Origin: Gautieria morchelliformis
Taxonomy: Eukaryota > Basidiomycota > Agaricomycetes > Gomphales > Gomphaceae
NCBI GenBank assembly: GCA_015179125.1
Contig: WHVA01000068.1
Coordinates: forward strand, 186,001 to 250,000
Direction: 5' to 3'
Length of the DNA: 64,000 bases
In this document: positions 15,315 through 49,895 of the stretch, piece after piece
How positions within the stretch are numbered: the first letter of the stretch is position 1
How the letters are laid out: every line of letters starts with the position of its first letter
The notes under the pieces: model-generated
What the model was told of the DNA's origin: nothing
Databases searched by the model: none
The model's input: only the letters and a program-made list of their open reading frames with translations
Position numbers and translations under genes: made by a program

Positions 15315-16755
15315 ATGACAAAGACTGATAGGATGGAGCTCAACGATGCCCTCCTTCAGTGTCTTATGTTGGAGCTCCTTCTTGAGGAAGATGCTGAGCT
15401 AGATGTCTACCTTGAAGACACTACTGATTCTGAGACTGGTGCAAGTTCAGATGAAAACATGGAATTGCGGTTAGAGTCAGATGAGGTTCTCGAGATGATG
15501 GCCGACCTCCACTCCAGACGATACCTTCACTCCCGGGTTAAAGTCAACAAGCCGATGTCGCTCCTTATGACCACCCTCTCCGACTACAGATATAGCCGGC
15601 CCGAGATATTTCGACAATACTTGCGGGTTTGGCCTCAGACGTTCGATGCCATCGTTGAAAGGATACAAGGTGACACCGTATTCCATAACAACTCTCACAA
15701 CGCCCAGCTCCCCGTTGCATATCAGCTTGCCGTAGCACTTTATCGCTTTGGCCACTTTGGGAATGCAGTGAGTATGCAGGAGGTCGCTCTGTGGGCCGGT
15801 TGGGGTTTTGGGACTGTCGACCGAAGCACACGCCGTGTAATCAAGGCTCTATGCCGCCCTGAATTCCGCCGTGTAGCTGTAAAGTGGCCAACCAATGAAG
15901 AGAGGGAGAGAGCAAAGCAGTGGGTTGAGGAAGCTTCAGGCCCCGAGTGGCGTGACGGCTGGTTGATGGTTGATGGTACGCTAGTGCCCTTATTCCAGCG
16001 ACCAGGGTTCTACGGAAATACGTGGTACGATAGGAAGAGCAATTACTCAATGAACGTGCAGGCAAGTTCTCTCATAAATAAATAGGTGTATAGCTAACTG
16101 CTACTCTAGCTCATCTCTACCCCTGACCTCCGCATCATTGACTATGGTGTTGGATTACCAGGAAGTCAGCACGATGCTCGTGCCTGGAACGAGACTCGCT
16201 TACCGAAGGAGCATGCTACATTATTGCGGGAAGGTGAGTGGATATGGGCGGACTCTGCGTATCCATTGCAGAAGTGGCTATGCACGCCGTACAAGAAGTA
16301 AGCTACCAGCTCAATCTCTAAGCTGTACCTTACAAGTGCTCTTTAGACCTGAGAAGGATACCCCAGAGAATGCACGGTTCAATTACTGGGTTTCTCGAGT
16401 ACGCGTGAAGTCTGAGCACTGCGTTGGATTCATCAAAGGGTGGTTCGGCTCCCTGCGAGGCCTTCGTGTACAAATAAACCAGGTTCACCAATTGGGTATC
16501 GCCACATTTTGGATTACTGCGTGTATTGCAGTTCATACGTATGCTATGTCACATGAGGCAGGCACAGACATCACAAGCGATGATTTCTTTCGTGAGGGAC
16601 TACGAATTATAGAGGAGGAGAGTGTTATAGGGATGGGTGGAGAAGCGGCTCTGGCAGAGGTACAGGAGGCAACTCGGGAGGTAGCTCTGTTGGAAGGAAA
16701 AGTTAAACGAGAGGACCTTAAGAACACTCTGTTAGCACGACTAGATTATGAATAG
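15315..16755 (+). CDS. Harbinger DDE transposase
   Basis: Catalyses cut-and-paste transposition of the surrounding element. Three exons (15315-16061, 16110-16297, 16347-16755) give 447 residues. The start is the first ATG (MTKTDRM). The first intron uses a GC donor (GCAAGT...CTCTAG), a minority class; the second is a normal GT-AG. The DDE_4-type nuclease core has its first Asp in MVDGTLVPL, the second in WADSAYPLQ, and the Glu in VKSEHCVGFIKG. An HTH-like region (LPVAYQLAVALYRFG, SMQEVALWAGWGFGTV) precedes the core. The C-terminal 60 residues form a charged helix. No stop or frame break is seen. The stop overlaps that of the convergent accessory gene. Confidence 0.93.
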
Positions 16756-22094: not shown

Positions 22095-23400
22095 TGTCAA
22101 GATTGGTTTTTGGGTGTTTAGTATCATGTGTTTAGTGAATAATGGCTATGTGAACAAAGGGAATGCCTGAATGCCTTGTGCGGCAAAAGATGTGGTTCAG
22201 CCAAGGGGGCCGAATGTCATGACCTGTCTATTTCTCTTACCCCACTGTCTCTATGTTCCCCCTCGTCACTCCCTAGCATCTTCGCCAGAGTTTGCCGCAC
22301 CCTCCGACCACTCCCCCGCTACATCCACTCTACCCGCCGTTCGCCCCATCCTCCGAACCGCTATTCGCTGCTCGCGCATTTCGCCAGCAGGCACGCCATC
22401 AAATATGATCGATACCATTTACCCAGCATGATGGTTCATCATTAACCCCATCATCTTCTTAATCCAACCCCTTTGGGTGTTCGTATGGCCAAAGTATGTT
22501 CGCAGGACGTCCCTTCCATAGGGTGTGTGGGATCAACCCAGTAGACGAAGAGTCCGTGCAGGGTAGCATGTATGCGGGTCCCAAGACATGGTTTTGGACA
22601 TAAGTGCCCTCACCACCTTTACTCTCCGTCGTTTCATGTTCGCACTCTTCCCTCACTCTATTGTATGTTTATTCCATCTACTTAGTATCATGACTGCGCA
22701 CCCCTATCCAACCCTGACTCACGACAGCCTCTTTCCTACTCGCTGTTGCCTTACGAGCATTCGATATAAGTAGTTTACATTTGCATGTATATTCTCCAGT
22801 TCAATTATCATACGTTGTCCATCTTGTGCAAGCTTGACCTCGCTGTGATCATCGTCTTGAGCCTTCTCCTGGAGATTTCTATCTTCGACCAGAAGAGGAC
22901 TTAGGCATCACTGGTGAGTCCTTATACTTCATCTTCGTTACCTTAGCCTTTGAACTATTTTCTGTTCTGATGGCGAAGGGATTGTCACTACTTAGACAAC
23001 CCTTCCGTGACGCCTTGCACGTTACATCGTCAAGTGCCACGGGCTATTTCGCTACGACTGTAGATAGGGCGAGCTCCGCTCGGGCAGCCCTCTTATCTTG
23101 TGAACATTTATTGGTTCACCTATTCGCCGAACGGCATACTTATTCGCACAAGCCATTCGGGCATTCGCTGTGTTCACTAATACACGATATTAATGCCTAA
23201 AAAAACAATCTTGGCACCGAACCAGTGAAGATACATAAGGTATAGGGTCACCTAAGTAAGGGGCACTTGTCTACAGTCACATGAGTAGCTCACCAAGCTC
23301 AACAATGTAACATGCGAGGGCTGTGTGGAAAGGTTGTCCAGTGACAAGTGATCCCTTCATCAGTGAAGACTCATGAGTGAAGTCCCAGTCCTTTCTAAGA
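22095..23400 (-). repeat. truncated family-A LTR split by a later solo LTR
   Basis: The reverse-oriented copy (TGTCAAGATTGG at 22095) runs to 22214, is interrupted by the forward solo LTR 22215-23216, and resumes at about 23222 to fade near 23400. One family member has inserted into another. Confidence 0.7.
22215..23216 (+). mobile_element. solo LTR, family A, with 5-bp target duplication
   Basis: A 1002-bp segment from TGTCATGACCTG to ...ATCTTGGCA (TG...CA ends), flanked by CCGAA (22210-22214 and 23217-23221). It matches 43954-44983 over its whole length. No internal region, so it is a recombination remnant of an LTR retrotransposon. Confidence 0.85.
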
Positions 23401-24387: not shown

Positions 24388-24747
24388 CACTGGAGGCATA
24401 TAAAAATTTTCTGGTCTGAAAAACTGTTCAAAAAACTGTAAAGATTTTCCAAATATTTTTAGTGTTTTTTATGTAAAAAACTTTAACAAAATTGTAAGAA
24501 AGTTTAAAGTTTTTTACAGGGTTTTTTATGTGTTTTTATAAGTTTCTTTGTGAAAACACAAAGAAACCCATAAAAAACCCTGCAAAAAAATTTGAATTTT
24601 TTTACAATTTTCTTGCTCAACAACGTCTAATAAAAACATAAAACTTTATTATAGTTTTTTTACATAAAAAACACTAAAAATATTTGGAAAATCTTTACAG
24701 TTTTTGAACAGTTTTTCAGACAAGAAAACTTTTCTATGCCTGCAGTG
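24388..24747. mobile_element. palindromic CACTG-ended MITE, copy 2
   Basis: A 360-bp foldback element, ends CACTGGAGGCATATAAAA / TATGCCTGCAGTG, flanked by TCA (24385-24387 and 24748-24750). It shares nearly its whole sequence with 958-1355, minus about 40 bp inside the arms. The different 3-bp duplication at each copy confirms independent insertions. Confidence 0.82.
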
Positions 24748-24750
24748 TCA

Positions 24751-25353: not shown

Positions 25354-26686
25354 TTATAGGTCGGATGCAGACAAGTCTTTCAGTTCGAGCGTCCCACCCG
25401 ACCATTCCTCATCACGGTGAGTCATGACCGTCTTCGTCACGGGCACGCTCAAGATGGTCGCGTTCATATCTCCAGGCTTCGAATCTAATGCGGAGAAGTT
25501 GCCACCTGCAGCTGTACGGAACCTCATACCATTGGGTGTGCGAGGGGCGTTACCAGTGTTGTCCGCTGATTCTACGGCGTTACCGAGACCGACGCGTACG
25601 AATATAAGAGTTGGTGCTATGCCCTAGGTAATTTGATATAAGCAGATTTTTCTTAATGTGAAAACCACAAATGAATGGACGTTCTACTGACGTAGACTTG
25701 GGTCGCGATGTCGGAGACCAAGATCTGCGCTGGATGGTTCATCGCAAAGAGCACCATGAGGACGAACTGCACCAGCAGGTATAAGCCGCCTGATTCGACG
25801 ATCACGATCATCGCCTCCCAGATATAGCTACGGGGGAACACGGTCTGGCCGGAATTGAGGTGTGCATTGTGGCGTTGTCTCCCGAGATACCAGATGCGGC
25901 CGATGATCAATGTCGTCACTATAAAGTTGAAGGCAAGGGGAACGGCGAAGGCGGACGTGCCAAGTGGAACGAGGGAAGGGGGTACAATGGCGGCTGCTGG
26001 GGTGGACACTAAGATACCGATCGTGGCCATCGCACAAGCTAAGACATGAACAGCATCAATAACTGTTCGTGGAAACAGGGAACAGACGTACAGACGAATG
26101 CAAGAGACACGATGACAGGAAGGATAATGATGTAATAGTTGCGGTTCCATATTGCCCAGACGCGATATATCTATGCACCATTCAGTGCATGATGCTGGGT
26201 TAACAAATTGCACTTGACAGAAAACGAACCCAGACGAGTTCCCCGAAAAAGTCTGTTAGAGTGACGAGCGCATCAGCAACCCTTAAAGCGGGCGTGCCCG
26301 CCTCAAGTGTTCCATTTGGGTTCGGGTGCTCGATCTGCATGTATATTAGGTCGATTGTTGGGATTCAAAATCAGTAAAGAATGCGACCCCGAATTTTGAA
26401 GTTATACAGTACCACATCTTTGAACATGTACCTGAACTTGATGAATACGTGGATCGTGCAGCAAGAGAACAGGAAGAAGCAGAAGAACAGGTAGAACTTC
26501 TGCACTCTTAGAGTTTTGCGCCAGACCGTCAAGGAAAGAGAAGCCATGATGAATAAAACAATATAGATGCCTAGACAGTTATGAACGGAGAGGAACACGG
26601 TTGAGACAAAAACCTCCCAGCTCACCGTAGAGTATTAGTTCAAAACCGAGGCCAAGGAAGCTAGACTCGTTTGGTGTGATCGTCAT
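25354..26686 (-). CDS. seven-transmembrane-type fungal membrane protein
   Basis: Belongs to a large group of uncharacterised multi-pass proteins of Agaricomycetes that resemble receptors; ligand and role are unknown. From MTITPNESSFLGLGFE (26686) the exons join through short GT-AG introns. Successive hydrophobic helices are visible: GIYIVLFIMASLSLTV, FYLFFCFFLFSCCTIHV, a TM around ILPVIVSLAFVC, ACAMATIGILVSTPAAAIV, PLAFNFIVTTLIIGRIWYLG, and AMIVIVESGGLYLLVQFVLM. The hydrophilic C-tail ends GTLELKDLSASDL and a TAA at 25354. The GIAPTLIFVRVGLG motif after the last helix is typical of this group. No frame break is evident. Confidence 0.72.
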
Positions 26687-26689
26687 TGC

Positions 26690-28464
26690 GCCAGTCGCAC
26701 CTGCTGGTGTCTCCACAACTTATGGCAGCGGTCGAGAGAGAGAGAGGGAGGGAGAGAGAGCGTGGAAATGATTGATAGCCGCCTTATTGTCTTCTGTCAC
26801 TCATGGAGGTTCATTCGGCATACCTTGAACTCAATGTTCCTGAAGGGAGCCTGGTGTCATTGATGTAGTAGGTCATGGATTCATGAATGGGGCTAAAAGC
26901 GGTGTCTGCCTTGATCAAATCACAGCCTTGGGTGGCAATTCCCCTTCTGGATCAAGCTTATCATGATGTAAATGGTAGTTAGCACGCCCGCCGGTTGTAC
27001 CCTACTCCGACTGAGGCATCATTTGAGTATCTGTCGAATGTGTGATGCTCTTGTACTAGTGTTTCATTCGATTAGGTGCGGTAGTTGTGCATATATAGGA
27101 TTCACATGGGCGGCCGCTAGTTGGAACCTTGTTTGTACGCCGATTCCTCCTGATTCCGATCCTCCACTCAGTGGGACTCCCGCTGAGTGGAGGATCTGGA
27201 AGGCCCGGGATCTGTCCAAGAGAGGTATAATTCATGGACGACATATGGTAGTTATCATCTGTACCCTGGTTTTGTATCCCCGAAAGACGTCCTCAGTAGA
27301 CATCTGTCGAAAAGGACACAGGGTCAGTCAGTGATAGGATTTGTTGTCCCCTGAGGGCTGTACCTGTAAGCTAAGTTACATAAAGTTTTGTAAATTGACG
27401 AAATCAGGTGGTAGTTCTGCCAAACCTTATATATTACTAGTGGTTCACGTGCCCGATGTAGTTCAATAGTTGTGTTAGGACTGCAACAGGCGCTGGATCA
27501 GCGGATACCAGCGAAATAGGCGCTGGATAGCTGTTGCGGATAGGAGTCAGACGTCGGCTGTTGTAAACATGTACAACCTACCTGCATATTCTATTCATAC
27601 ACTCATTCCTACGCCTCCACATACGAATCACCTGAACCGTCCCCTCGCCTGTAGGCTTATGGTGCACATGCACTGTCCGTCCTTTCTTGGCTCACGGTCT
27701 GCCTGCCTCCAAATTCAAGCCAAAGCCGATATCAGTGATCACGCCTTTTTGCACTTGCCAGACATTACTTATTTCTAACAAAATTTCAAATAATATTAGC
27801 TGTACTGATTTTTGAACTAGCAAGGCCAAAAGCATAAGATGTAACTGGCACCCTTGGCCGCCTCTTTATAGTCTTCATCATCCATGGGGTCAACGAACAC
27901 TGCGAGCAAAGTCGCGAGATAATGCACCACTGATTGACGCATTGGGGGTGGACCACAATGTAATCGACCGTCTGAAGGTCAATGATTTTTGCTGTGGTTG
28001 TATTTGACTAGTACATGGAAAGCTCCCGTGTTGCATCACGTCCTCCAGTTGAGCATGGAATCACCATGGCGAGTAAAATCACGTGGGTCCTGCTAGGTTA
28101 AATGTGCGCGAGGCCGGCAATTTGAGGTCAAGAATACAGTCGAGTTGTCCATAGAAATCTGATCGACATGCGGGGGATGACCACAGTACACGCCGACTGT
28201 TGCCAATAACCAATGTCGCCGTAACAGATACGTGTGTGTTATAGCCATGGCATCTAACATGTCCATCAAACGTGAAATAGAGAGTATATGCTGGCTGACA
28301 TTTATCAAGTCATCGTCCTATAATTTACATAAACTCAGCAGGGAGAGTTGCGCTCGGACTCGTTGTAAAGTATTTGTGAAACAATCATCGAAGCTACTCT
28401 AACAGGTTTCGTAACGAAGAAGAACAAGTCCGAGGAGGTATGTATGGTATGTGATCAAATGTGA
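26690..28464. other. intergenic region, no gene recognised
   Basis: About 1.8 kb between the 7TM gene and the methyltransferase. It includes a (GA)n run near 26735-26760, a perfect 14-bp-arm hairpin at 27158-27196, and GCGCTGGAT repeats near 27490-27530. No frame with a recognisable domain was found on either strand. Confidence 0.35.
27158..27196. repeat. perfect hairpin
   Basis: GATCCTCCACTCAG is followed after 11 nt by its exact complement CTGAGTGGAGGATC. Nothing nearby identifies it as a transcript terminator or element end. Confidence 0.7.
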
Positions 28465-30442
28465 TCACGCTTTCGAACAAACGATCTGGCTCAGACAACT
28501 CCCTACTGTCTGATACACTATTTCGATTTTCCACCCAGCGGCCGCCAGCATTTCCTCGAATTCTCCTAACGTGCGCTCCTGGGCATTAAGAAGCACCGCC
28601 ATAGTGTAATCGGTGGTATACACATCCGAATTCGCCTCTCCAAAATTCGTCAACAAAGGCGGTGGAGCAGTGGAAGCCCCCTTGATAATGCCACGACCAA
28701 GAGACGCTGGCGTTGGGCATGCATATGGCACGAGTTGGTCAACTAACATCACTTTGGTCTGCGGAGACGCTGCAGCATGCAGCTGTGTCAAGATCTTGAC
28801 GCACTGATCGAATTTCCAGTCGTGAGTTATGAACCGGAGGAAAAACATCGAGACTTTTTGAGCAATATGCGATGGTTGAGATTCAAAGAAATCTTGGGCT
28901 AGTTAACCAGATATGGAATATTGAGCGAAGGCATATCACGGCAAGCGGAAGAGACAGAGAACCTTCAAGTTTGACTTGCCCTGACTTCAGCATGGCTGCT
29001 TGTTCGGAATTGCCTTCCCATGTCTGATAGAGGAGTGATAATGACATAAGACTAACCTACCCGTGCGCTGACTTACTGGTACTGTGACTTGCTGGATCGT
29101 CTGTTCCCGATCTTGAACGATGATCTTAAGGTGTGGAGCCTTCTTGGCAATTTCGAAAGCCTCTGAGCCATTCCCACCGCCGAGATCTACGACCAACGAA
29201 TCCCTAGGCAATTTAGACCAATCGAAACCTATTATCAATCAGTAATCATTTAGTTCCCAGTCAACGGCGAAAAAGAAGCCACATCGTATCGCTAGCCCTC
29301 ACCTTTGAATAACTTCTGCTGAGGTTGGAGCTTCGTCCATGCGACCATCGCCATCTGGATGCGCTGCAAATATCCTGGATTCTTCTCAAAAAACTCCCAC
29401 ATCGTGCCATTGAACTGCAGGGCTTTCTGAAAAGACGTCTTGGAAAAGTCATTGGAGAGGACAACGCTGGGAAGGAAAGCGGAAGATTTGAAGACTTCGT
29501 CGGTGCTGTAATATGCATCGGTATTTCATCAATACTCAAACGACAGGGTCGGTTGAAGGCCGTACCATTGCTCGACGAGAGCTGGCACACCGCTCGTGTT
29601 CAAGTATTTCTCGCCTTGTACATTGCTCACCCCGTATCCCATATTTGCAGAATTTTCGAGCGTTTTCCTGTAGTAAAAACAGATCGATGAGACGACCTTG
29701 TCCCTTGAGAAGAGGGCAGGCGTTTTTGCACTAACCTGCTGATAGCCAGAACATCTTCACTACTTTTGTCAGTGTCCATCATGGAGCTGATGCGGTTGTT
29801 GGCGAAGACGTTCGGCTCAAGCTTAAATAAAGACGACGTTAGAAAAGAAAATATCAGTGCACTGTGGCTCATCTGCAGTTCACCTCTCTAAACACATAGT
29901 GAGTGGCGAGGAGACGTAATGTACGACCTGTGAATTTAGGTGCATAAATAGTAGAGACGACGGTTCATGAATGTCGGAGTTTTAGTTCTCACTCATTATA
30001 ATTGGATCCGTGTTTGACTTAAGGGCAATATCCTTAGCGTGCATGCCCTTGGGACCAGCCTCACGGAGAATCTCGACCACACATGCCTCAGAGGCGATCC
30101 GAAGAGCGGATGGGATGTGAAACTATTCAACTCGAGTTCAGCTCCCAATACCCTAATCTAGGAGGTTCTTATGATGCTTACCGCGTTTGCGCGATCCAAT
30201 AAAGACAATCCGGGAAGCTTCAGGGTCGCAACGAGTTGAGACGCCGCAGACGTCGCCAGCATCGCCGAGCTGAGGACCTCCTGCCTTATGGTAAACTGCT
30301 CTGCCTTGCTTTCTGGATCATACAGATCATTAATTGACGGATGGTTTATTCCGGTTTGCTGGGAAAGCCGCTCGATGGCGTCGACGTTCTCAGTGATGAT
30401 CGCTGCGAGTGCTTTCAGATCTGACATGGTGGCGGCCGCCAT
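28465..30442 (-). CDS. S-adenosylmethionine-dependent O-methyltransferase
   Basis: A family-2 (plant/fungal small-molecule) O-methyltransferase that would methylate a hydroxyl on a secondary metabolite, in the cytosol. Read from MAAATMSDLKAL (30442; the next Met at 30427 is also possible), the exons give an N-terminal dimerisation/winged-helix domain (FHIPSALRIASEACVVEILR, RTLRLLATHYVFRE), then DEVFKSSAFLPSVV. The SAM-binding loop is VVDLGGGNGSEAFEIAKKAP. The block RFITHDWKFDQC holds the catalytic His, followed by ILTQLHAAASPQTKVMLVDQ, and the protein ends SQIVCSKA. About seven short introns join without breaks. It is the leftmost member of the possible terpenoid cluster; the P450 lay about 0.6 kb away before the hAT insertion. 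Confidence 0.86.
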
Positions 30443-30499
30443 ATTGGAGAGCAAGATGTTAATATGAGGGTGAAACTGAGGATCACCGATCTTTCAGTG

Positions 30500-30826
30500 G
30501 CGGGTACTTAAGGCGTGCCTGAAAGCAGCACGGAATCAGATCAGATGCGGCGCCACCCTCAAGCGCGCCAGACTATGCCAAGAGCGGTGGCCATACACTC
30601 CATGGGTCTCGATCGATCGGATTGATAAATACGGATCACTCCATGCACTCCATGGTGTGCCACAACAGCGCCCAAGTAAGCAGGGTCATGATTATCAGGT
30701 GTTTCCGTCGTTCTCAGAATCTCATCAGAACAGTGACTTATCACTACGTAGACATCAATGTGATGAAAACTGACCCATTTCCTCATACGGCTGCATGGAC
30801 GCCTGCCTTCTATTCTATACAGCAGC
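30500..30826. repeat. left half of the dispersed repeat that hosts the hAT-like insertion
   Basis: Resembles 5090-5222 and is continued at 35446-35510 on the other side of the insertion. It sits in the upstream region of the methyltransferase, so it may form part of that promoter. Confidence 0.5.
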
Positions 30827-31739
30827 TAGTGATGGGCATGGCCTGGCCCAGGCCGTGGGCCGAGCCAGGCCGAGCCGCCAATAGGCCGGGCCAAGCCAGG
30901 CACTGCAGAAAGCGCCGGCACCTAAAAATCAGATGAAACGGAACTTGATTTTCAGTACAAAACCAGCTAAAAATCAGTACTTGAGCACTGATTTTTAGCT
31001 CCCGAAGTGTTCCCGGCCCCTTCGACCATGAACTGATTTCTAGTAGTGAAAATGTCCCACTTTGTACTGTTTTTTTAGCTCAAAAAGAACTGAATTCCAG
31101 CTTGTTTAGCACTAATAAACAGTACATTCAAAACTAATTTTTAGGGACATTTATTATTGCCTAGCGAGCGGATATGAATGGGTACCGGATGGAAACAGGA
31201 CAGAAACACTGAGATATGCAGCCACAATGAACTGAAGTATGAGCTGGCGCAGCGCCTGACAGGACTGGTAACAAATCGACCCACAGGAATTCCAGCGTCC
31301 ATTCGAGGGAATATGTGGGAAACCCCTGCGAGTACGAGTGGCATTGCATCCATCAGCCGAAGGTCTTGGAGGCAGCATTAAGCGCAAAGGTGGGTCCCCA
31401 GTGGAGGTAGCCACGGATGAATTTGTGGCCTCTGGACGAGGGGAAGACAGCAAGGGCAGACAAGAGAGGCGGTGTCGAACTCAACACTGAGCAGGAGAGG
31501 AATCAGGGGTGGACGCACTGCGCAGGGTACTGTGGGCCATTTCCTTGATATACAACGACGCAGGTGAGTGACGGTGCAAATAGATAGGAGCTGCGTACGT
31601 CAATTTCGCCTGAGAGTAGAACATCGTATAGGAAGGGACATCCACACACACGACACTACAAGCCGAGCGCTCCGTCTCGAGCGAGGTGCGCTGCGAGTCC
31701 ACGTCGCCATCCGACGGCGCGCACTGGGGCTCCCCCTCC

Positions 31740-32580
31740 GCACCCGCGCCGTTCGTGCGCGTCGTGCGCTCGTGAGTATTCGTCATGGGGTCGTGTGGTG
31801 TTGCTGTGGGCCCTGTCAAGTCATCAGGTGTCCGCGTGGCTGCGTCTTGAGTCCTCGATGCCTGTGCCGCCGCTGTCCCCCTCCTCACCATCTCTCTGTC
31901 ACTCATTCCCATCCCCCTCGTCTCCCTTTCCCTCGGCCGCTTGTTACTCGTCTCCTGGGCCTGCTTCACGGCGTTTTTCGTCGGTGCTGTGGGCTCGCGA
32001 GTCGTCGTGGCGGTCATGGCGATAAGGGTGTGCTTTGCGGGGTCATCTAGGGGTGCTGTGTGGATGGCACTCTGGCTCTCCGGCTCCGTGATCTCGCATG
32101 TCCCTGTCACGTCCTCATTGGTCTTTCTGGCCGCTTCTGTCCCTTTTCTGTCCCTATCCCTCTGCCTGGTCCCTGTCTCCTTTGTCCCCATCATCTCGTG
32201 GGTCTGTGCTGCGACGTCGTTCGTCTGTGCCGCTGTCCCGCGCGTCAGCGTGTTCTTGGGTGTTCCCTGCCCTGCGTTGCGTCTCTGTGACGCGTCCTCG
32301 CATGTCCCCGTCGCCGCGTCGTTCGTGCGCGTCATGCGCTCGTGAGTATTCGTCGCGGGGTTGTGTGGGGATGCCGTGTGGGACTGGGTCATGCTCTGGA
32401 CCGTCTATGTAGCTTCGTCCTGTGTCCTTGCCGCCTCCGCCGTCTCCCCTCTCTGCCTTGTCACGCTCTCCCTTGTCCCGTTCACTCTTCCCTCGTGCTC
32501 CCTTGTTCCCATCTCGTTCCTGTTGTCCCTCGTCACCATGATCTTGCGGGCCCACGTCGCGGCGTCGTTCGTCTGTGCCA
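31740..32580. repeat. GC-rich degenerate minisatellite
   Basis: Recurrent CGTCGTTCGT, GCGCTCGTGAGTATTCGTC and CTCGCATGTCCC modules without a strict period. The long frames on both strands (up to about 300 codons, rich in Thr/Arg or Ser/Val) are products of this composition; I do not call them genes. Confidence 0.55.
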
Positions 32581-32599
32581 CTGTCGCGTAGGCGTAGGC

Positions 32600-33070
32600 A
32601 TCGCTGGGGCCTCCTGCGTTGGCACGGCGCCCGCGGTCCATTGCAACGTGTCGCTCCCCGTGAGAGTGACGCCGCTCTGCGGGCGGCCGTCCTCCCAGAA
32701 GCCGCTGCCCGTCTGCACGCTCGCGAGCGCGCCCGTGCCCGCGGCGGCGTCCCACGCGGGGCCGGACGGCTCGACCCACCCGGAGCTCTGGAGGTACTTG
32801 CACGTGGGGACGCTGAGGAGCGCGGCGCCCTGGGTGCCCCAGTCGGCGACGAGGAGGGCGTGCAGCACGGCGTGGGCGGACATGGAGCTGAAGAAGGCGC
32901 GCAAAGGCGCAGGGGGACGCGGTGGCTTACGAGAAGAACACGACGTCGGCGTGTTGGATGAGCTGGGCGGCGGCACGGTCCGCGGGGTCAGCGTCCGTGA
33001 TGACAGGGGATGGGGGAGACGACACACCTGCTCGATGCCCGCGCGGGTGACTCCGAGACTGAACACACAG
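32600..33070 (-). pseudogene. captured host-gene fragment, possibly a PfkB-type sugar kinase
   Basis: Minus-strand reading gives VITDADPADRAAAQLIQHADVVFFS, a plausible GTAAGC...TTCAG intron, then SAHAVLHALLVADWGTQGAALLSVPTCKYLQSSGWVE and a Gly/Thr-rich tail. The ADVVFFS and WGxxGAALLSVP pattern recalls the C-terminal lobe of PfkB/ketohexokinase-like proteins, but the identification is weak. There is no start and no complete domain. It lies wholly inside the CACTG-ended element, as expected for transposon gene capture. Confidence 0.35.
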
Positions 33071-33620
33071 CGGCAACAACGACAACAACAAAAATCCGGA
33101 CGCAAGCTGAGTAAGCTATCACTGGGGTGAACAGATGACGTACCACTCATTGGCCATGGCCCGTACGTCTACAGGAAGCATCCATAGGGCGGGTCACAGC
33201 CAGTCGCTGCGAAGATTATAAGTACGATGTCATGTCCATCAGTGAAAGAAGAGAAAAACATAAGAGGTCACAGTTCGTACGCGATGGTTTGGTAGCGACC
33301 GCAGAGGGGCGCCCACTGCGAACACACGACGTGGAAGGTGCGTAGAATCATAAGGATCGAACCGTGGGTTCTGACGAATCCGATAGAGTCAACGCTCGCG
33401 CGATCCCAGAGAGGTGTCCTACTTACTGATACTCTGATAAGTCAGTGTCAAAATAGACCGCCTCAGCGGCGACAAGGTCGAGCTGCTCGTCGGCGACAAC
33501 AGCGCACAGCTGCTTGGTTGCCAACTCGAGACCAAGAAAATGGGTGGGTTTACCAGCTGGGGGCGTCTTGGAAAGCATGTTTGAGCTAAGAGAATGTGTA
33601 GAGTATGAGAAAGAGAAATA

Positions 33621-33770
33621 AAGTGATGAGAAAAGAAAGTGATGAGAAAAGAAAGTGATGAGAAAAGAAAGTGATGAGAAAAGAAAGTGATGAGAAAAGA
33701 AAGTGATGAGAAAGAAAGTGATGAGAAAAGAAAGTGATGAGAAAAGAAAGTGATGAGAAAAGAAAGTGAT
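33621..33770. repeat. 16-bp minisatellite, about nine copies
   Basis: The unit AAGTGATGAGAAAAGA is repeated head to tail with one shortened unit near 33707-33720. The high identity suggests recent expansion by slippage or unequal exchange. Confidence 0.85.
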
Positions 33771-34650
33771 GGGTATCGAGTGGAGAATGCAAAGGCCGGT
33801 CAGCACCCCAACGCCCCAAATAATCAAAAAGGGGACAAAGATGTACCCACCCAAATCTTCCAAGATCGACCTCCCTCATCCACGTCACTCCCGAGGCATC
33901 ACGCTAAAGTTGTCAAGGACGTCTGTCAGAGTCAGAGAATAGTTTAGCGTCGATGGCGGATTCCGCGTGTCTCAGCACCGGTGTGTTGATCCGCCCAAGG
34001 CAGCAGATGTATGCGCTTGCAATGGGGTTGAGGAAGGAAGGCTATTAAAGCGGAGAATCAAAAGACTTGCGGAAAAAAAGCAGTGACGCGTACACAAGCA
34101 GCCGTCTGCAGTCGACAGAAGCGGCGATTTCGAAGACGGCGTTTGTGGACCCGGAGATTGATCATGATTAGGTAGAAAAGATAATTCATTGGTCATTGGT
34201 ACTGTACTGTTTGACTTTGCATTTTGTCCTGTACTTAAATTTCAGTACTTGTATAGTACTGATTTTTAGTGCTCTGTGAAATTATTTTTTGGGGACTAAA
34301 TTTCAGTACAAGTCGGTACTGTAATTTAGCTGTAGTGCAAGCGGAACTGAAATATAGCGCTTATTCTTCCTACAGTGCAGGCCAAAGCCGTTGGCACAGC
34401 CGGCTCCATGGCCCGGCTCAGGTTTTGCCAGGCCAAAGCCGAGCCAGGAAGCCGTGGCCTGGCGAGCCTAAATACAAGATCTTCGGTCACAAAAAAGGAT
34501 ATGTATGCTCTGATACTGGCAGCGAATATTTTTTTTTTCGATGATAGCGTAGTTACAGTCTCCATATCTCTTACTCTTTACCCCACTTGCTATGCCCCGC
34601 CCTCGCATTGCTGATTCTGATTGCGAAATTGAGGCAGTTAACGGCGCCGA

Positions 34651-35149
34651 CAGTCACAAGCACTGGACGTATGGTGAAACCCAGTGCGGCGTTGGGTGAT
34701 CCCCTAACGATCAAAAATGTCCCGCTCATGCTGTTTCTCCTCCCCGCGCGCGACACCTTGAGCTTCTTCCTAATCGCTGCGCGCTCCCTCTCGCGCTCCT
34801 CGCCAGTCTTCTCGTTCTCGCCTTTGCCGCGCTCCCCGTCCTCCTCGTCCGCGCTGGACGCGTCGATGTCCATGCCCGCGCCTGCAGCGCCCAGCTAGCC
34901 GCGCGTCGCCGCGCTCCACAGTGCTAATCCGCACACGCTTCATCTGCCTGCCGTCCGCGTCCCCGCGCGCGGCCTCTGCGACCCGAGCAGCTCGTGGCTC
35001 GTCCCCGGCGCCCCGCCGCGTTCCGTGCGTCGCGGATGCGCACTGTCCGGACCGTGGGGTTGTGCTCTGCGCGATGGGCCCGGGCACGCGTCGCAGTCAC
35101 AAGCACCGGACGTGTGGTGAAACCCAGTGCGGCGTTGCGTGATCCCCTA
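34651..35149. repeat. pair of 56-bp direct repeats inside the hAT element
   Basis: 34651-34706 and 35094-35149 (CAGTCACAAGCACYGGACGT ... GATCCCCTA) differ at only a few bases. The first lies in a short ATG frame starting MPRPRIADSDCEIEAVNG (34592) that could be a relic first exon of a transposase. Confidence 0.6.
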
Positions 35150-35681
35150 AATGTGACCCGACAAGCACCAAGAAGACAGGTGCAGGAGACAAAACAGCCC
35201 CGATGATATCATCGACAACGAGGAAGAGCTTTAATACCTTTTGGTACACTACATACAATATAAGAATGATATCTTGTCTACAAGGCTATTCCCCCACCAA
35301 CAGGCCACGGCCCAAGCCAAGGCCAAGCCGGAGCCGAGCCAGGCCAAGTGCTAATGGCCTGGCTCAGGTTTTTAGCAAGCCAAAGCCGGGGCGAGCCAGG
35401 CCAAAGCCACGGCTTTCAGGCCAAGCCAGGCCGTGCCCATCATTGACAGCAGCTGCTGCATCCTAATGGTATCTTAGAAGATGTTGTGTCTGAATCTATC
35501 ATTGTAAATGTGAGTATGGCGCACAAACGGTGACATGCTTCCAGTGTATTGACTTTTCTCTCTTATAACGCAAGAGACACATCATAGCATCAATAAATTC
35601 GTCTGGCGTCGATGCCCAGCGCCTGATTGAAAAATAGCTCATACAACATGCAACAATCAACAGTCCTATGCACTTTCTGCT

Positions 35682-38192
35682 TCATGCCACAGGTGTTACA
35701 GTAAGGGGGAGCTCCGTACGCCCCGAATTCGAGCCTTTGACCCTGCATATACGTATCAGTCACAAACTGAACAATAAACATCCCTTGGCAGGGAGATCAG
35801 ACTCACATTGGGCCCATGGTGGCCGTGGCCGCTCTCAGGATCTCAATATTTCCATGCGGGGGCGAAAATTCAAAGTTCTCAATAAGCTCTGCGAGCATCA
35901 CTTGCATCTCCAGCATCCTGGTTGTGCAACCGTGAGGCAAACAGAAAACATAACGCTGGAAAACAACACGACATACGCATACCGCCATCTAAAACAATCA
36001 ACACAAATACTCAGCTATTCCAGATTCTGTATTCCACCGACTGCAATTGCAAGGCTCACCCGATGCAGGTGCGTCCACCACTGCTGAAAGTGGCCCTAGA
36101 AGAAAGAATTAATTCGTCGCGTAGAAGAAACCTCATTGTCGCTTAGCCGGTACATGTTGGCATAGACCCCCACGGGAGTCTTCTCGTTCTCGGCGATATG
36201 TGTCTCAAGGAATCGTTGTGGCCTCCATATGTCTGCGTCCTCTCCCCACGCCGACTTCAGTCTGTAGACGGAATGACCAAAATATTGCAGAATCGAGGAA
36301 AGCTGGAGATGGTACTTGCCTGTTGAACGCCGCAACTGATAGGAGGATGGTCTGTCCCTTGCTGATAGGAATGCCAGTGATAAACTGACCGGTCTTCGTT
36401 CGCAGTGGTGTAGATAGCGGTATGACAGCATCACAGCCAGCTATGCGCTGCATTTGTGGTAGAATAGGGTGAAATCTAAGGGTCTCCTGAGAGGAAACAA
36501 ACGGAGAAAGTCAGAGTCAGTGGTGAAGTTCCGCAGTCGCGCACAACAGAACGAACCTTCAAGACCGCCCCCAAGAGTCTCATCGAATCCAAAGCCGCGG
36601 CAGTCAGCTCTTCCTCTCCGCGCTGTACAGCCTGTAGACGTGTCGCTTTAATTTCTTGTCTGAGCTCGTCTTGGACCTTGGGGTGAATGGATAGGCAGTA
36701 CAATGCCCACGAGATTGTAGTCGCACTTGTTTCATGGCCTGCTACCATCAAGGTCCTTCATATTTTTCAGAATCCTGCACACCACGAGACGGAGAAATTT
36801 TGTCACTCACGTGAGCTGGGCCAGAAGTTCACCATTCGACAGTTTATTGTAGGTAGTCGCTGAAAGGTTTGCCCTGACTACCCCAACAGGTGCAAATGAG
36901 CGGTCGGGTGAAACATTCTGGGGAAAACACTCACCAATCCGGCTGAGAATGTCTTGACAGCTGTCCTTGCTGTTGATCTCTGAGTGGAGATGTCTATCCA
37001 CCAGTGACTTGCCGACACGTCGTGCTATTCGCGTGTAATTCTGCACCTGGGAGATGGTCTTATTTGGAAAAATTTTCAGGAGGACAGAGAGCACCCATTT
37101 GGGGAGAATGCCGCAAATGGCCTCAAACGCGAGTGTGAAGTCAGAACGCTGCAGAAATGTGTCGGCACTTTGATCTCCCCGTGAATACGCGTAGACGTAT
37201 ATTTAACAATTACAGAGCTTACAAAAGGTTGTCATAAGCCTGATACAATTCGTTTTTGGTAGAGTCCCCTAACGCCCCGAATGGATAGTCAAATGCAGCT
37301 AATGTTTTAGGCAACGGGTTAGAACAAATGTCTATAGAGGTGAATGGGCGCTCACTGGCACCAAGTATATCCATAGCGGTGCGATACATCCATGGTAGAA
37401 CGTCAAACTCAGCAGACGGATTTCCACCCTCCGTGACTAAATCCTTCCAGGCTGACACGGTCTATGGACGCATACTCTAGTCAGGCATAATAAGGTGATA
37501 ATGGCGCAGATCAACCTGCTGAACTGTCTGTCTGAACAAGGGCAGGTGTTCTTTGATTGCAGCAGAAGAGAAGGCGGAATCCATGATTTTTCTGTGCCGG
37601 GAGTGCTGAGCCCCTGTCAAGGAAAACAACAGTACATCCATATGAATATTCTAATAAATAGTATGAAACAACAAACCCTCAGCCCATACAAGACCTTGTC
37701 CCATAAAAAGCTCCAGGAGGAACCTAAACTCAGGAGCTTTGGGAAAATTGTAACACGATGTATTAAGAATATAGTGAAAGGCCTTTCAAGTGTGCGAACT
37801 AAGTAAATCCGAGGACAAGGCCAAATTGCTAACCTTGGGGTCCGTAGTAAACAATACATCGCGCTACATCTGAGAGTAAGGCTCCTCGTTCAAACCGATT
37901 GCTACAGACTTACTCCAAAGGTACCTTTTATTCGCACAGCATTCCCAAAGGCGTTCGTCCACGAGAAATCTGCGTCTCCCACATTTACGGGACGGAATAA
38001 TGCTGGAAGATTCCCTTACAAAACTCTTGTGAGAGGCGAAATTCTCTCTTGTAGAACAGCTGCAGGCTCACCGACCAGCCACGAGCCTGGTGGCGGACCG
38101 AAAAGATTTGAAATGGGTCGAAGGCGGTGTCGACGGAAAGCTATAAAGAGCACTGGGACCAGAAAAATTGCACACAGGGAAAGATGTAGCAT
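35682..38192 (-). CDS. cytochrome P450 monooxygenase, complete, about twelve introns
   Basis: A second ER-anchored P450, unlike the first in sequence, close to P450s abundant in wood-decay Agaricomycetes; CYP family not assigned. The start is the ATG at 38192 (MLHLSLCAIFLVPVLF, the membrane anchor). Splice reading gives GPPPGSWLVGNLPALFRPVN, TNAFGNAVRIKGTFG, YILNTSCYNFPKAPEF, I-helix MVAGHETSATTISW, the K-helix ExxR in ETLRFHP, a WRPQRFLE segment, haem loop FSSGGRTCIGW with the Cys ligand, and the usual TELPLTVTPVA end (stop at 35682). All phases join without stops. It is transcribed away from the terpene synthase 1.9 kb distant, and its product probably oxidises that enzyme's terpene (inference from position). 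Confidence 0.9.
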
Positions 38193-38406
38193 GAGGTAAT
38201 ATGAGGCCCTGGGGACGGTCACGTGAACAGTTGAGCGGTGGCTCGAGACGCTGGATGTGGTTCACGTCGGATAGGACGCTCTAGCTGCAAAATATGACAG
38301 TGGGTGAGCTATGGACACCTATGTATAGCTGGGCAGAAATTCTGCGTAGTATCACGCCGGCGCCCGCAAGTAGCCCAACCCCATAAGTATTGATAAAGCC
38401 GGGATA

Positions 38407-38460
38407 GTGCCTGACCAGGGGCAGCGATCTGAGCTCGATTCGGTTCAATTAAACACGACT
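38407..38460. repeat. short repeat shared with 11597-11640, inverted
   Basis: GTGCCTGACCAGGG...CGGTTCAATTAAACACGA is the reverse complement of the segment 150-200 bp before the first P450 start (11597-11640). Here it lies 215-270 bp upstream of the second P450 start. Relative to its gene it has the same orientation in both cases. Confidence 0.6.
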
Positions 38461-38516
38461 GAATTGGAGCGGACGGTCCCCGCTATGGCAGTAACAGTGA
38501 TGTTCGGGCTCGGCGA

Positions 38517-38795
38517 CTACCAATGGCATCCCGACCTATTTGGCCTACACTGGTAACGCAAGATGGCTCGCTCCGGCGGCGGCTCCCCATCAGCGGAGCG
38601 GTGTGGAACGTGAGTCGATGGCGGCTACGCGCGCGCGAGCGGCGGAATATCAGCGGGGGACAGTGAACGCGCACCTCACAGCGAGCGAGTGGTGTCGAGG
38701 GTCTTCACGGCGTTGGGTGTGGGTCGTGTTGAACCACGGTGCCACGCGTGACAACGCGCACAGCGTGGGTGAGAGTGGGCGCGAGTGCTTCAAAT
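38517..38795. repeat. GC-rich dispersed repeat upstream of P450 gene, copy 2
   Basis: Matches 11146-11430 from ACTACCAAT..GCATCCCGACCT through AACGCAAGATGGCTCGCTC and ATCAGCGGGGGACAGTGAACG to GGGCGCGAGTGCTT. It lies in the divergent interval between the P450 and the terpene synthase. Confidence 0.6.
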
Positions 38796-38799
38796 GGCC

Positions 38800-40083
38800 A
38801 CGGCCGCTGATGTACGTCCGGTGAAGCATGTATTACTGAGGCATTGGAAATTCTGGGTAGTCTAGTAGCCATGGCCCCGGGTTGCATTGGCGCCCGGGCC
38901 AATCAGTGGGGACATGAGTAATGGGGATATTACTGACCCTGCGTCTAGCGCCGGCCGCCACGAACCAAGCGCATCGTGCCTAGCCTGTCGAACAATGTTG
39001 CTGCGTTAACTTCGTGGGAGATTTCGCTTTAGTAAATCAGATGCAGTCTCGCTGACCAACAGGGCTCCTACATCACACAACGTGCTTGGTCACCTCTGGG
39101 TCCGGCCGCCGCCTGGAATGCCCTACGAAGTAAATGGTGCGACATCTCAGCTTTATTGTTACAGAGTGAAGATAAGAAATCAGCAAAAGGTGTCTGTATT
39201 AGTGGGTCTGTCTACGAAGAACACAGCTCGACAGGCTGGCACGGCTTCCGGCCTCACCTCATTTCCGTTGATGCCGCGGTCAGAGAATAATGATTGTCTA
39301 CGAAGCTAACGCAGCAGCACAGCATGAGTTCCTGCCTCACCTAATGTCCGTTGATGGCGTCAGGGACAGTGACTGTCAGAACCCGAGGGATGTGTCACTA
39401 TAGTGTCATGGTCCTACCATGGGATCTAGGTATGCCTTCTCAGAAACTAACAGTGACCTGACACGATGCTCATAAGCGCCCTGTTGCGGGTTTCAGGGGG
39501 TTCGTCACCGAAACAGTGCTCGAAGAAAAAAAAAACGAAAGGGGACAGCAAAACAGGAGAACCGAAAATTCTCTTTCCCAAGACCGTTTGATTGATTTCT
39601 GAATTAGCGCAGGCAATGCTTATTGTCAACGGCTGAATTAGTGTGCATGCAGGTTGATGTCTCCAAGCAGTAGCAATTCATAATTACACTCCCAAAGTTG
39701 GCGGAGAAACATGAAGGTAAATGATGTAGGTAAAAAAACCAACTGTATAACTTATCATTGCCAAAACAGGCATATCAAAGTAGACTTTTGATGGGGATTT
39801 GAGGATGATTTATGGAGGATTTGATACTCAGTGATTCCAAACAGGGCGCCGCGTTACAGCAAGTGGGTGCCGTCCACTTGGGCTCCTACTTAAGGATGTT
39901 CAAAAAGCTGAATCCGTGGAACTTCCTTGGTCTTAACTAATCCATTCAAACTACTCCCCAATGCCCGGGTTTTCTCGCTTAACTCGTGATGAGCCAGAGG
40001 ATTCCCCACATGACAAGTTGTGATGTTGTTCGCCGTGTTTTTCTCATCCATCTGACAATAGAGCCCCTTTCCCCAGTGGTGCG
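38800..40083. promoter_or_regulatory. divergent interval upstream of the terpene synthase
   Basis: No gene is recognised in 1.3 kb. It includes a diverged Harbinger end-like segment at about 39776-39835 (TTTTGATGGGGATTTGAGGA). No conserved regulator site can be claimed. Confidence 0.3.
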
Positions 40084-41114
40084 ATGGTCACTGAGATGAC
40101 TCGCAATGCGATTCGCTCGTTCCTCAGGCGGTGTGACATCCCTTTGCCTGCCGTTGACTATGATTACGACTTCGACGCTGCCTGCAGAGCAGAAGCTGTT
40201 CGTCGCGGTTATCCAATGGAGGGCCCTAATTCCCTCGCGCCTTTCATTCCAGGCGGAGTCGCGATGGTCATCACCGCATACGCGCACCTCACAGACGAAT
40301 CCATACGGCTTTTCATCTCATTGTACACTGCCTTCTTGATCTATACCGACGATGTGTTTCAGTATCAGGTCGACGCCGTGCGAGAGTTTAACGAACGATT
40401 CGTCGCACAAAAGCCGCAGCAAGACCCTGTTCTCCACAGTTTCGCGAATTTGCTTCCAGAATTTTCCCGACACTTCAGCGCCGTAGCATCGAATATTATG
40501 ATCACGTCCACATTGAACTTGATTACTGCACTCTTATTGGAGCATGACACGCGGGGTATGGCGGTAATTGGAATTCATTCATCCCGGAATTCCACTCGTT
40601 GTATGGCACTAAATTCCTCCTGTTAGGTCCGACAAGCTGCAGGCAGTTATCCCACATTTTGTCGAGCCATGTCCGGAGCTGCAGATGCATATGCACTCTT
40701 CGCATTCCCGCCCGAGCTTGCTCTGCCAACATACATCCAGGCATTTCCTGATGTGCGAATCTACATTGACGATGGAAAGTGTGTCCTCCCTCCGAACAAC
40801 TAGTCCCATTCACAAAGTATAACTGCGAACTCTTTTCCAGCGATGTCTTCTCCTTTTACAAAGAAGAGCTTTCGGGAGAGTGTGGAAATCGCATATGCCT
40901 GCGTGCCGATATCCAGGGCACATCGAAGCACGAGGTGCTCCAGCAGCTGGTGGACAGTGCTGTCGATGCTCACCACCGGGTGATCCAGATCCTCAAGCCC
41001 CACCGCGTGGCTCTTGATGCATATCGGAGTTTTGCGAATGGATATGTTGGGTTCCACGCTGTTTTACCACGCTATAAGTGGAAGGATTTGGAGTTACAGC
41101 GGGATTTGATCTAA
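40084..41114 (+). CDS. trichodiene synthase-family (TRI5-like) sesquiterpene cyclase
   Basis: A class I terpene cyclase expected to turn farnesyl diphosphate into a sesquiterpene; the product is unknown. Three exons (40084-40563, 40627-40778, 40841-41114) sum to 906 nt, or 301 residues, slightly short of the ~370 usual for ascomycete trichodiene synthases but common for basidiomycete members. The family layout is clear: LFISLYTAFLIYTDDVFQ supplies the aspartate-rich metal site, ALLLEHDTRGM follows, and IDDGNDVFSFYKEELSGE is the NDxxSxxKE second metal site, created by correct splicing of the second intron. Then come DAHHRVIQIL and the C-terminus YVGFHAVLPRYKW. No defects are seen. It lies beside a divergent P450 and near an O-methyltransferase, the layout of a biosynthetic cluster. 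Confidence 0.92.
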
Positions 41115-41931
41115 TTTATGGGACTAGAACGACCACATCAGTACCGACTTGTACTATAGAGTAATGTAACGACCCGGCCTTATTCCGAAGCCGGCCAGGA
41201 CTAGTGAATCTGCCAGTGACACCTACTCTAGGGTGGGTGCCCGTGCTTCGCGCCGGGATAGGTCAAACACATGAAGGTAAATAAAAAGTATCAAGTAAAC
41301 CCATCAAGTAAAACGTATCAATTAAAACTCATCAAGTAAAACACATCAGGATAAGTAAGGCGTATCTGCTAGTGAATTTGCAGCCTCGGCTTCATCTGAG
41401 AAAAAAATAGGGTGTTACTTAGCTTTATGTAGTGTATGTAGGACATATGGTGTTGTAGCAACCCCTCTGTCATGTAGCCCTCTGTAGTTGACCTACTGTC
41501 TACGTAGCACAGCATAGTGCATTTTAACACTCCACCAAGGATGCGTAGGATATGTAGCCTGCTGAGACCAGCCAGTATAGTTGTGTAGAACAGCATCGTA
41601 GTGCACCGTAGCACTCCCCCATGGCTGCATAGGAGTCTGTAACCATGGCAATACCAGCCTATATAGTTGCATAGAACGGTGTCAGAGGCTTTTCAGACAG
41701 GTGTACTAGTAACATGCAGATAAAGTAAAATATGTTCATTAGGATTTGGGAAATGGAACAATTACATAGTTGACTTGTGTTACATGCTCCATATGAGCAC
41801 ATAGGATGCGCCTAGTGTCAATTAACTATCCAACTCCCCACCATCGAGTGAATTTTGTTGTGAACTGGTATTTTACTTTATCTCTGCTATGTCAGTGTCG
41901 TCTATGTTGTGGACCGGCACTTTCCCAGGTA
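41115..41931. other. spacer with short tandem repeats
   Basis: A CATCAAGTAAAAC-type repeat (about 17-18 bp, four to five copies) at about 41285-41350 and GTAG-rich degenerate repeats at about 41430-41680. No gene is recognised. Confidence 0.35.
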
Positions 41932-42420
41932 GTGATGTGCATGGCCCGCCCAGGCCACGGCTTGAGCCAGGCCAGGCCCAAGCTGTTGGTGCACTGGGCT
42001 TTGTGGCCTGGCTTGGGTTTTGACGAGCCTGAGCTGAGCCAGAAGCCATGGCCTCATAGGTGCCTGAACCCCAGGATCTTCAATGGCCAAAAAGGAGACT
42101 TCTACTCAGTTATGGGCATTAAATTATATTTTCTTACTACTCATAGTGTAGTTACAGTGGCCCTACATTTTTATGTTTATTGTTAGATAATTCAGAATAG
42201 ATATTATTCTGAACTCAAGGAGTAATGGTGCATGTTGTGCACCCCTTGTGTAGTGTTCTCCGGGCTTGGGCTCAGGCCCGGGCTGAGCCTGAGCCCAGCC
42301 CTAAAAAGCCCAAGCCCGGCCCGGCCCAGGCCTCCAAAAGCCCTAGGAGGAGGGCCGGGCTTCGTTTTCAGAAGCCCTGAGCCCAGCCCTTAAGCCCGGG
42401 CTTTTGGGCACCATTGTGGA
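41932..42420. mobile_element. hAT-like repeat relics
   Basis: At 41932 TAGTGATGTGCATGGCCCGCCCAGGCC is close to the left end of the hAT element at 30827. A second GC-rich palindromic relic spans about 42244-42414 (TAGTGTTCTCCGGGC ... TTTTGGGCACCA). Clean duplications cannot be read, so both are treated as decayed copies. Confidence 0.5.
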
Positions 42421-43953: not shown

Positions 43954-44983
43954 TGTCATGACCTGTCTATTTCCCTTACCTCGCTGTCTCTACGTTCCCC
44001 CTCATCGTTCCTCCTGCATCTTCACCCGAGTTCACCTTACCTTCCAACAACGCCTCCTCTATGTCCTCTCCGTTCGCCCTTCGCCACATTCGCTGAATGA
44101 CCATTCGCTGCTCGCATCATTCGCCAGCAGGCATGCCATCAAACGCGATCGACATCCTCTACCCGGTGTGATGGTCCATCACTGGCCCCATCATCTTCCT
44201 AATACAACCCCTTTAGGTGTTCATATGGCCGGGATGCATTCACGGGACATCCTACCCGTAGGTCGTGTGGGATCAACCCAGCAGGCGAAGAGTCCGTGCA
44301 GGGTGGCGTATATGCAGGTCCCAAGGCGTGTTTTCGTACATAGGTGCCTTCGCCCTCTTTCCTCTCCATCATTTCATGTTCGCACTCCTCTTCCATTCTA
44401 TTGTATGTTTATTTCATCTATTTGTATCATGACTGCGCACCCGTATCCAACCCTGACTCATGACGGCCTCTTTCCTATTCGCTGTTACCATACGAGCATT
44501 CGATATAAGTAGTTTACATTCGCATGTATATTCCCCAGTTCAATTATCATATGTCCATCTTGTGCAAAACTTGACCTCGCTGTGACTATTGTCTTGAGCC
44601 TTCTCCTGTAGATTTCTATCTTCGACCAGAGGAAGACTTAGGCATCACTGGTGAGTTTTCATACTTCATCTTTGTTACCTTAGCCTTTGAACTATTTTCT
44701 ATGCTGTCGGCGAAGGGCTCCGAAGGAGCGCCTTCGCTGGTGAAAGGATTGTTGCTACTTAGACAACCTTTCCGAGACAACTTGCACGTTACATTGGCGA
44801 GTGCCACGGGCTATTTCGCTACGACTGTAGATAGGGCGAGCCCCGATCGGGCAGTCCACTTATCTTCTGAACATTTATTGGTTCACCCTCTTCGTCGAAT
44901 GGCATACTTATTCGCACAAGTTATTTGGGCATTCGCTGTGTTCACTAATACACAATATTAATGCCTAAAATCCAATCTTGACA
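43954..44983 (+). mobile_element. solo LTR, family A, with 5-bp target duplication
   Basis: 1030 bp from TGTCATGACCTG to CCAATCTTGACA, flanked by CCTCT (43949-43953 and 44984-44988). The ends form the short inverted repeat TGTCA/TGACA normal for LTRs. The ~200-codon frame inside has no domain. Parent retrotransposon not present in the window. Confidence 0.88.
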
Positions 44984-45076
44984 CCTCTCTCCTGAGGTAC
45001 CCACTTGGTATGTCCCTCTATGGGACTGTCTTCTGCAATTTCCATTGCATCCAATGTCTTTGTATGGGCTTCTAGG

Positions 45077-46047
45077 TGTCAAGATTGGATTTTAGGCATT
45101 AATATTGTGTATTAGTGAATACAGCGAATGCCCAAACGGCTTTTGCAACGAAGTGTGTAATTCGGTGAATAGGGTGAAGCCAATAAAGGTTTAGAAGGTA
45201 ACCGGGCTACCCAAATGGAGCTTTCCCTATCTACAGTCGTAGCGAAATCACCCATGATACTTGACGACGTAACGTACAAGGTCTCACGGAAAGGTTGTCT
45301 AGTAGTAACAATCCTTCCGCCAGCGAAGGTACTCCTTTGGAGCTCACTGACAGCACCGACAATGGTTTGAAGACTAAAGTAGTGAAGGTGAACTATGGAA
45401 ACTCACCAGTGGTACTCAAGTCCTCCCCTGGTCTAAGATAGTAGTCTATAGAAGAGGGCTTAAGACGATAGTCACAGTGAGGTAAAGTTTTGCACAAGAT
45501 AGATGTATGATAATTGAACTGCAGAATATACATGCAAATGTAAACTAATACCGAATGCTCACATGATATCAGTGAATAGGAAAGAGGCCGTCATGAGTCA
45601 GGGTTGGATAGGGGTGTGCAGTCAGGATACAAATAGATGAAACACATATACAATGTTGGAAAGCGAATGTGAAACAACGGGGGGAGAGAGGACAAAGGTA
45701 TCTATGTAAGAAAACACGCCTTCAGACCTGCATACATGTTACCCTGCATGGACTCTTGGTCTGCTGGGTTTATCCCACATGATCTACGGGTAGGACATCC
45801 CACAAATGCATCCGGCCATAGGAACACCCAAAGGGGGTTGAATCGAGAAGGTGATGGGGCCAGTGATGAACCATCACGCCGGGTAAAGGATGCCAATCAT
45901 GTTTGATGGTGTGCCCACTGGTGAATGATGCAAGTAGCAAATGGTCATTCGGTGAATTCGGCGAAGAGTGATTGGGGCGAACATAGAGATGGAGGGATGA
46001 AAGGGAAAATGGGGGTAACTGGATACAAGAATAAACGAGTCATGACA
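45077..46047 (-). mobile_element. solo LTR, family A, reverse orientation
   Basis: 971 bp, TGTCAAGATTGGATTTTAGG to GAGTCATGACA, flanked by CTAGG (45072-45076 and 46048-46052). It lies 93 bp from the forward copy, so the two form a 2-kb inverted pair. Confidence 0.87.
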
Positions 46048-48749: not shown

Positions 48750-48855
48750 TCTAGTTCCCCACCCACAGGCTGTGGCCCAAGCTGGGCTTAGCCTGAGCTG
48801 AGCCAGGCCTGCTGTTAAGGGCCTGGCTCAGGATTTGGCATACCATTTGTCCACA
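48750..48855. repeat. hAT-like GC-rich repeat relic
   Basis: Contains GGCTGTGGCCCAAGC, GAGCTGAGCCAGGCC and GGGCCTGGCTCAGG, the composition of the hAT repeats at 2092 and 30827. Ends unclear. Confidence 0.4.
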
Positions 48856-49085: not shown

Positions 49086-49154
49086 GAGAGAAGCCAACTG
49101 TAGACAGTTCACGAATGCAAACTGAGAAGCGAGCACATGGTGGGAGGTCCCTGG

Positions 49155-49895
49155 TGTCAAGACTGGTTTTTAGGCGTTAATATCGTCTATTAGTGAACAC
49201 AGCGAATGCCCAAATTACTTGTGCGAATAAGTATGCCATTTGGCGAATAGGTGAACCAATAAATGTTCACAAGATAAGAGGGCTGCCCGAGCGGAGCTCG
49301 CCCTATCTACAGTCGTAGCGAAATAGCTCGTGGCACTTGATGATGTAACATACAAGGTGTCATGGAAGGGTTGTCTAAGTAGCGACAATCCCTTTGCCGG
49401 CGAAGGTGCTCCTTTGGAGCCCTTCGCCGTCAGCACAGAAAATAGTTCGAAGGCTAAGGTAACGAAGATGAAGTATGAGAACTCACCAGTGATGCCTAAG
49501 TCCTCTTCTGGTCGAAGATATAAATCTCCAGGAGAAGGCTCAAGACGATGATCACAGTGAGGTCAAGTTTGCACAAGATGGACGACTTATGATAATTGAA
49601 CTGGAGAATATACATGCAAATGTAAACTACTTATATCGAATGCTCGGAAGGTATCAGCGAATAGGAAAGAGGCCGTCGTGAGTCAGGGTTGGATAGGAGT
49701 GCGCAGTCATGATACTAAGTAGATGGAATAAACATACAATAGAGTGAGGGAAGAGTGCGAACATGAAACGACAGAGAGTAAAGGTGGCGAAGGCACTTAT
49801 GTACAAAACCATGTCTTGGGACCAGCATACATGCTACCCTGCACGGACTCTTCGTCTACTGGGTTGGTCCTGCACGACCTACGGAAGGACATGCC
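49155..49895 (-). repeat. truncated LTR (family A), reverse orientation
   Basis: Begins TGTCAAGACTGGTTTTTAGG and follows the family-A LTR for about 740 bp before ending at CGGAAGGAC, close to the same internal point at which the 6343-6630 copy stops. The far end and duplication are missing. Confidence 0.7.

Follow-up and report, generated by a model that had tools for sequence, protein, structure and literature searches.

Organization of the locus

The 64,000-bp stretch of DNA analyzed here, referred to as the window, carries genes for a TRI5-family sesquiterpene cyclase, a cytochrome P450 and an O-methyltransferase (OMT), all of which fall within 28465-41114, an interval that runs exactly from the stop codon of the OMT to that of the cyclase. 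Exon borders were chosen by hand from the DNA of both strands, and the introns and reading frames were verified by script. The resulting spliced models are predictions; each is intact and free of internal stop codons. The cyclase and P450 genes are divergent: they lie head to head, and their start codons are 1,891 bp apart.

Features of the locus (positions refer to the window; strand given where assigned)
Feature	Position	Strand	Description
O-methyltransferase (OMT) gene	28465..30442	-	9 exons, 490 aa, intact spliced model
hAT-like non-autonomous element	30827..35445		4,619 bp; target duplication ACAGCAGC at 30819-30826 and 35446-35453
Xylulokinase-like first exon in element	33426..33578	-	ATG at 33578, 50 full codons into GTAAGT donor-like site
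Cytochrome P450 gene	35682..38192	-	16 exons, 541 aa, intact spliced model
Degenerate repeat in P450-cyclase spacer	38354..38797		related to 11147-11687
TRI5-family (PF06330) sesquiterpene cyclase gene	40084..41114	+	3 exons, 301 aa, intact spliced model

The OMT and P450 genes are separated by an inserted element. On one side it is 384 bp away from the OMT start codon, in the upstream region of that gene; on the other it is 236 bp beyond the P450 stop codon. Discounting the insert, the OMT directly adjoins the P450, with 620 bp (384 + 236) between the start codon of the former and the stop codon of the latter. An earlier first-pass annotation of this DNA had proposed an intact TRI5-like cyclase, an intact divergent P450, an intact OMT, an insertion of 4.6 kb and a distance of about 0.6 kb between the OMT start and the P450 stop without it, all of which agree with our models and measurements. 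Its description of the cluster as split by a transposon is too strong, because the insert lies upstream of the OMT start in intergenic DNA and leaves all three genes unbroken; the cluster should rather be termed lengthened.

The sesquiterpene cyclase

The cyclase matches the Pfam profile PF06330 with an E value of 6e-16 (58.7 bits, cut-off 25.2). An RY pair is present, and the second motif, NDVFSFYKE at residue 211, fits the pattern NDxxSxxxE. The first motif, DDVFQ at residue 89, departs from the canonical D(D/E/N)xx(D/E). This canonical form is not a strict requirement of the family, since the active PF06330 enzymes Cop6 (DDAFQ) and LbSTS6 (DDVFQ) also lack it, as tabulated in PMC10608071. 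By sequence, the closest solved structures are longiborneol synthase CLM1 (1.5e-21), SydA (about 2e-20) and trichodiene synthase (2.9e-8), which belong to the same family but are remote and differ in their products. No relatives of the cyclase were found in the scanned viral and prokaryote contig collections, a result of little weight since these hold viruses and prokaryotes.

For comparison we used the 20 mushroom enzymes with PF06330 alone, as counted in Table 2 of PMC10608071. In two of these, Cop6 and LbSTS6, the first motif ends in FQ, and alpha-cuprenene is made by both; the motif pair DDVFQ/NDVFSFYKE of the cyclase is closest to this pair of synthases. Compared by motifs alone, LbSTS6 from Laccaria bicolor, which yields alpha-cuprenene and alpha-cuparene, has an identical first motif and a second motif, NDVLSFYKE, that differs at one position (PMC10608071). 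The same table lists three alpha-cuprenene makers without FQ (Fompi1, GS11330 and PoSTS16), barbatenes as the product of 5 of the 20 enzymes, delta-cadinene as that of AbSTS07 and acyclic nerolidol as that of LnSTS19. Nearly all of the 20 are placed in clade IV in Table 1 of that paper, and the available part of PMC9501842 gives 1,6-closure from nerolidyl diphosphate as the usual route of this clade. Because of this placement, the cyclase quite probably closes its substrate by 1,6-cyclization. A cuprenene-type product is a reasonable single guess, which we put forward tentatively and at somewhat less than even chances.

The P450 and the O-methyltransferase

Introns of the P450 gene are of the GT-AG type in 14 cases and of the GC-AG type in one. 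The gene product matches PF00067 with an E value of 6.5e-64. The I-helix motif AGxxT, the ExxR motif and the heme-loop cysteine are all present (AGHET at residue 318, ETLR at 380 and FSSGGRTCIG at 474), together with an RPQRF sequence and a hydrophobic N-terminus. Among the matches listed to 1e-20, animal CYP4B1 (6.8e-27) and others are the closest solved relatives, a likeness that says only that the protein looks like a typical microsomal P450. The scanned viral contig collection held no relatives of the P450, which carries little weight because the collection covers viruses only.

Eight introns, all GT-AG and 53-74 bp long, interrupt the OMT gene. Its product matches PF00891 (Methyltransf_2; E value 1.1e-16, 61.3 bits, cut-off 22.3) and contains the dimerization domain PF08100 (7.5e-10). 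As expected of a PF00891 OMT, the SAM loop is found as DLGGGNG at residue 290 and the histidine of the HDW motif at residue 372. The best structure matches are PDB 8pha (1.1e-49), an entry named simply as an O-methyltransferase domain protein, and GedA (2.7e-37). LepI and HpiI, which have the same fold and act as pericyclases, appear in the same list of matches. Since neither the SAM loop nor the HDW histidine has been lost, the plain reading of the sequence is that the enzyme would carry out methyl transfer rather than a pericyclase reaction.

The intergenic insertion

The element is flanked on both sides by a perfect 8-bp duplication, ACAGCAGC. Its ends are 21-bp inverted repeats, TAGTGATGGGC at one side and CAATGATGGGC when the other is read inward, alike at 18 of 21 positions; by uniform-base arithmetic, such a pair is expected by chance about 8e-5 times per 64 kb. 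The element thus shows the 8-bp target duplication and the short inverted ends by which hAT elements are recognized, and duplications of this length are usual for hAT. The transposase that would complete a hAT assignment was not recognized in the element: its 34 stop-to-stop pieces of at least 70 aa all failed to match a transposase in Pfam, and the best matches (E values 0.067 and 0.085) fell far short of the cut-off. Zisupton elements also make 8-bp duplications, according to the available part of PMC12730594. The first-pass label of hAT-like therefore stands as far as ends and duplication go and falls short as to transposase; because no Pfam transposase matched and Zisupton elements share the duplication length, hAT-like, and nothing firmer, is the right strength for the name.

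The ratio of observed to expected CpG is 1.01 in the element, 0.75 in the whole window and 0.79-1.07 in the three genes. Together with the perfect duplication, the CpG ratio of the element suggests a recent arrival, although base composition does not itself date the insertion because the genes lie in a similar range. Two stretches elsewhere in the window, 41930-42179 and 48751-48836, are relics that are 68-80% alike to the ends or the interior of the element. Within the element, a direct repeat of 64 bp (34644-34707 and 35088-35150, 92% alike) frames a G+C-rich segment.

Possible gene capture by the element

The element contains an exon-like open stretch on the same strand as the OMT. This was suspected, before any search, to be the start of a xylulokinase. 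The best match of the exon among 177,635 PDB sequences is human xylulose kinase, and the two N-termini align in register; the E value of 0.2 is not significant alone. The alignment covers 36 residues with 14 identities, and its score was reached by none of 20,000 shuffles, a comparison that is not a free test because the target segment was itself picked by the database search. The exon has no match in Pfam or NCBIfam. Just upstream of it, 33616-33771 holds a 16-bp tandem repeat of 9.8 copies, and the upstream tract is CT-rich. Another stretch that looks like an exon, at about 32590-33000, is reminiscent of fungal pfkB sugar kinases; sequence searches gave this identity no support, and we do not claim it.

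Because it has no recognized transposase and carries the xylulokinase-like exon in the orientation of the OMT, the element may belong to the Pack-type hATs, which capture genes. Pack-TYPE elements are chiefly familiar from plants. In common with them and with fungal TET-carrying elements, the insertion has terminal repeats around what appears to be host-gene sequence. The fungal elements of PMC12730594, as far as described in the available part of that source, encode TET/JBP dioxygenases and in several cases a transposase, whereas no transposase was recognized here. Among the matches listed in a literature search, many of them off topic, none was a Pack-type hAT from fungi as judged by title or abstract, which does not prove absence.

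A real capture would make the element one of the Pack kind, with a captured 5' region pointing at the OMT. A more far-reaching version, in which a fungal Pack-hAT recently took up the first exon of a xylulokinase gene together with that gene's promoter, and the promoter now faces the OMT on the same strand and influences the terpenoid cluster, we regard as very improbable. Were it true, the locus would offer a recent and concrete instance in which a promoter captured by a transposon, here one from sugar metabolism, has rewired secondary metabolism. Should pieces of metabolic genes truly have been captured, one would have to ask how widespread such gene-capturing hAT elements are among fungi.

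A candidate sesquiterpenoid pathway

Taken as a whole, the locus is best explained as a small sesquiterpenoid cluster of the Agaricomycete type with an intergenic hAT-like insert, an explanation that we hold at a little better than even. In such a pathway, the PF06330 cyclase would ionize farnesyl diphosphate and, through 1,6-cyclization, most likely release an alpha-cuprenene-like hydrocarbon. The divergent P450 would then hydroxylate this hydrocarbon, and the OMT would methylate a resulting hydroxyl group. The non-autonomous element would have jumped into the region upstream of the OMT, leaving all three genes whole.

A precedent for part of this scheme is the synthesis of lagopodin in Coprinopsis cinerea, in which two clustered P450s, cox1 and cox2, act alongside the cyclase Cop6 (PMC8594250, available part). 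In both systems, a PF06330 cyclase with a first motif ending in FQ lies beside P450 genes. They differ in that Coprinopsis has two P450s and our locus one, and in that an OMT is present here while none is named in the part of PMC8594250 available. A sequence of cyclization, oxidation and O-methylation is reasonable by analogy, because Cop6 works with two clustered P450s in Coprinopsis. A cuprenene cluster with a methyltransferase was not among the results of our literature search.

Judged from gene position and enzyme logic, a joint pathway of all three genes is slightly favored. Three intact genes that make up a sensible pathway count for it, as does the head-to-head arrangement of cyclase and P450; the repeats in both spacers, OMT-P450 and P450-cyclase, count against it. 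That arrangement and the lagopodin pathway would also suit a functional pair formed by the divergent cyclase and P450 alone, with the OMT as an unrelated neighbor that the insert sets apart from both. This seems rather unlikely, given that the OMT comes to lie merely 620 bp from the P450 once the insert is removed and is itself unbroken, SAM and histidine motifs included. In a repeat-rich window, in which both spacers contain repeats, the genes could also be chance neighbors, three members of large families placed side by side with no common pathway; the P450 and methyltransferase families are indeed large in such fungi. Mere chance is decidedly unlikely: a cyclase found together with an oxidase and a methyltransferase in 13 kb is typical of terpenoid gene sets, and none of the three models is broken.

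The three-gene cluster would add to a well-known kind, its gene set being ordinary for Agaricomycetes. If it works, it extends the list of mushroom sesquiterpenoid pathways by one; the guess as to the product, which would be methylated and of the cuprenene type, is testable, and the effect of the insertion on the neighboring gene would be measurable.

Other features of the window

The first-pass annotation had placed a 7TM gene on the left edge of the cluster. The 7TM-like gene, at about 25354-26700 on the minus strand, lies outside 28465-41114; its pieces have no Pfam match and its first exon does not splice in frame in our reading, so that we do not call it intact. Having no match to a Pfam family, it was set aside as a cluster member, and a link to the cluster is unsupported.

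On the plus strand, an open frame at 9279-10631, 450 aa long, matches the phosphotransferase family APH (PF01636; E value 1.7e-9). A nearly palindromic fold-back repeat of 1.9 kb at 44057-45988 has arms that are 79% alike, and related copies, with about 82-92% identity among them, lie at 22215-23218, 49153-49888 and 6343-6636. A second inverted-repeat element, at 958-1356, has a copy in direct orientation at 24388-24748 that is about 85% alike. Transposon genes are found at 16078-16755, 61120-61497 and 63114-63752, all on the plus strand, with matches to DDE_Tnp_4 just under the cut-off, to a Ty3-like capsid under the cut-off and to a reverse transcriptase over it.
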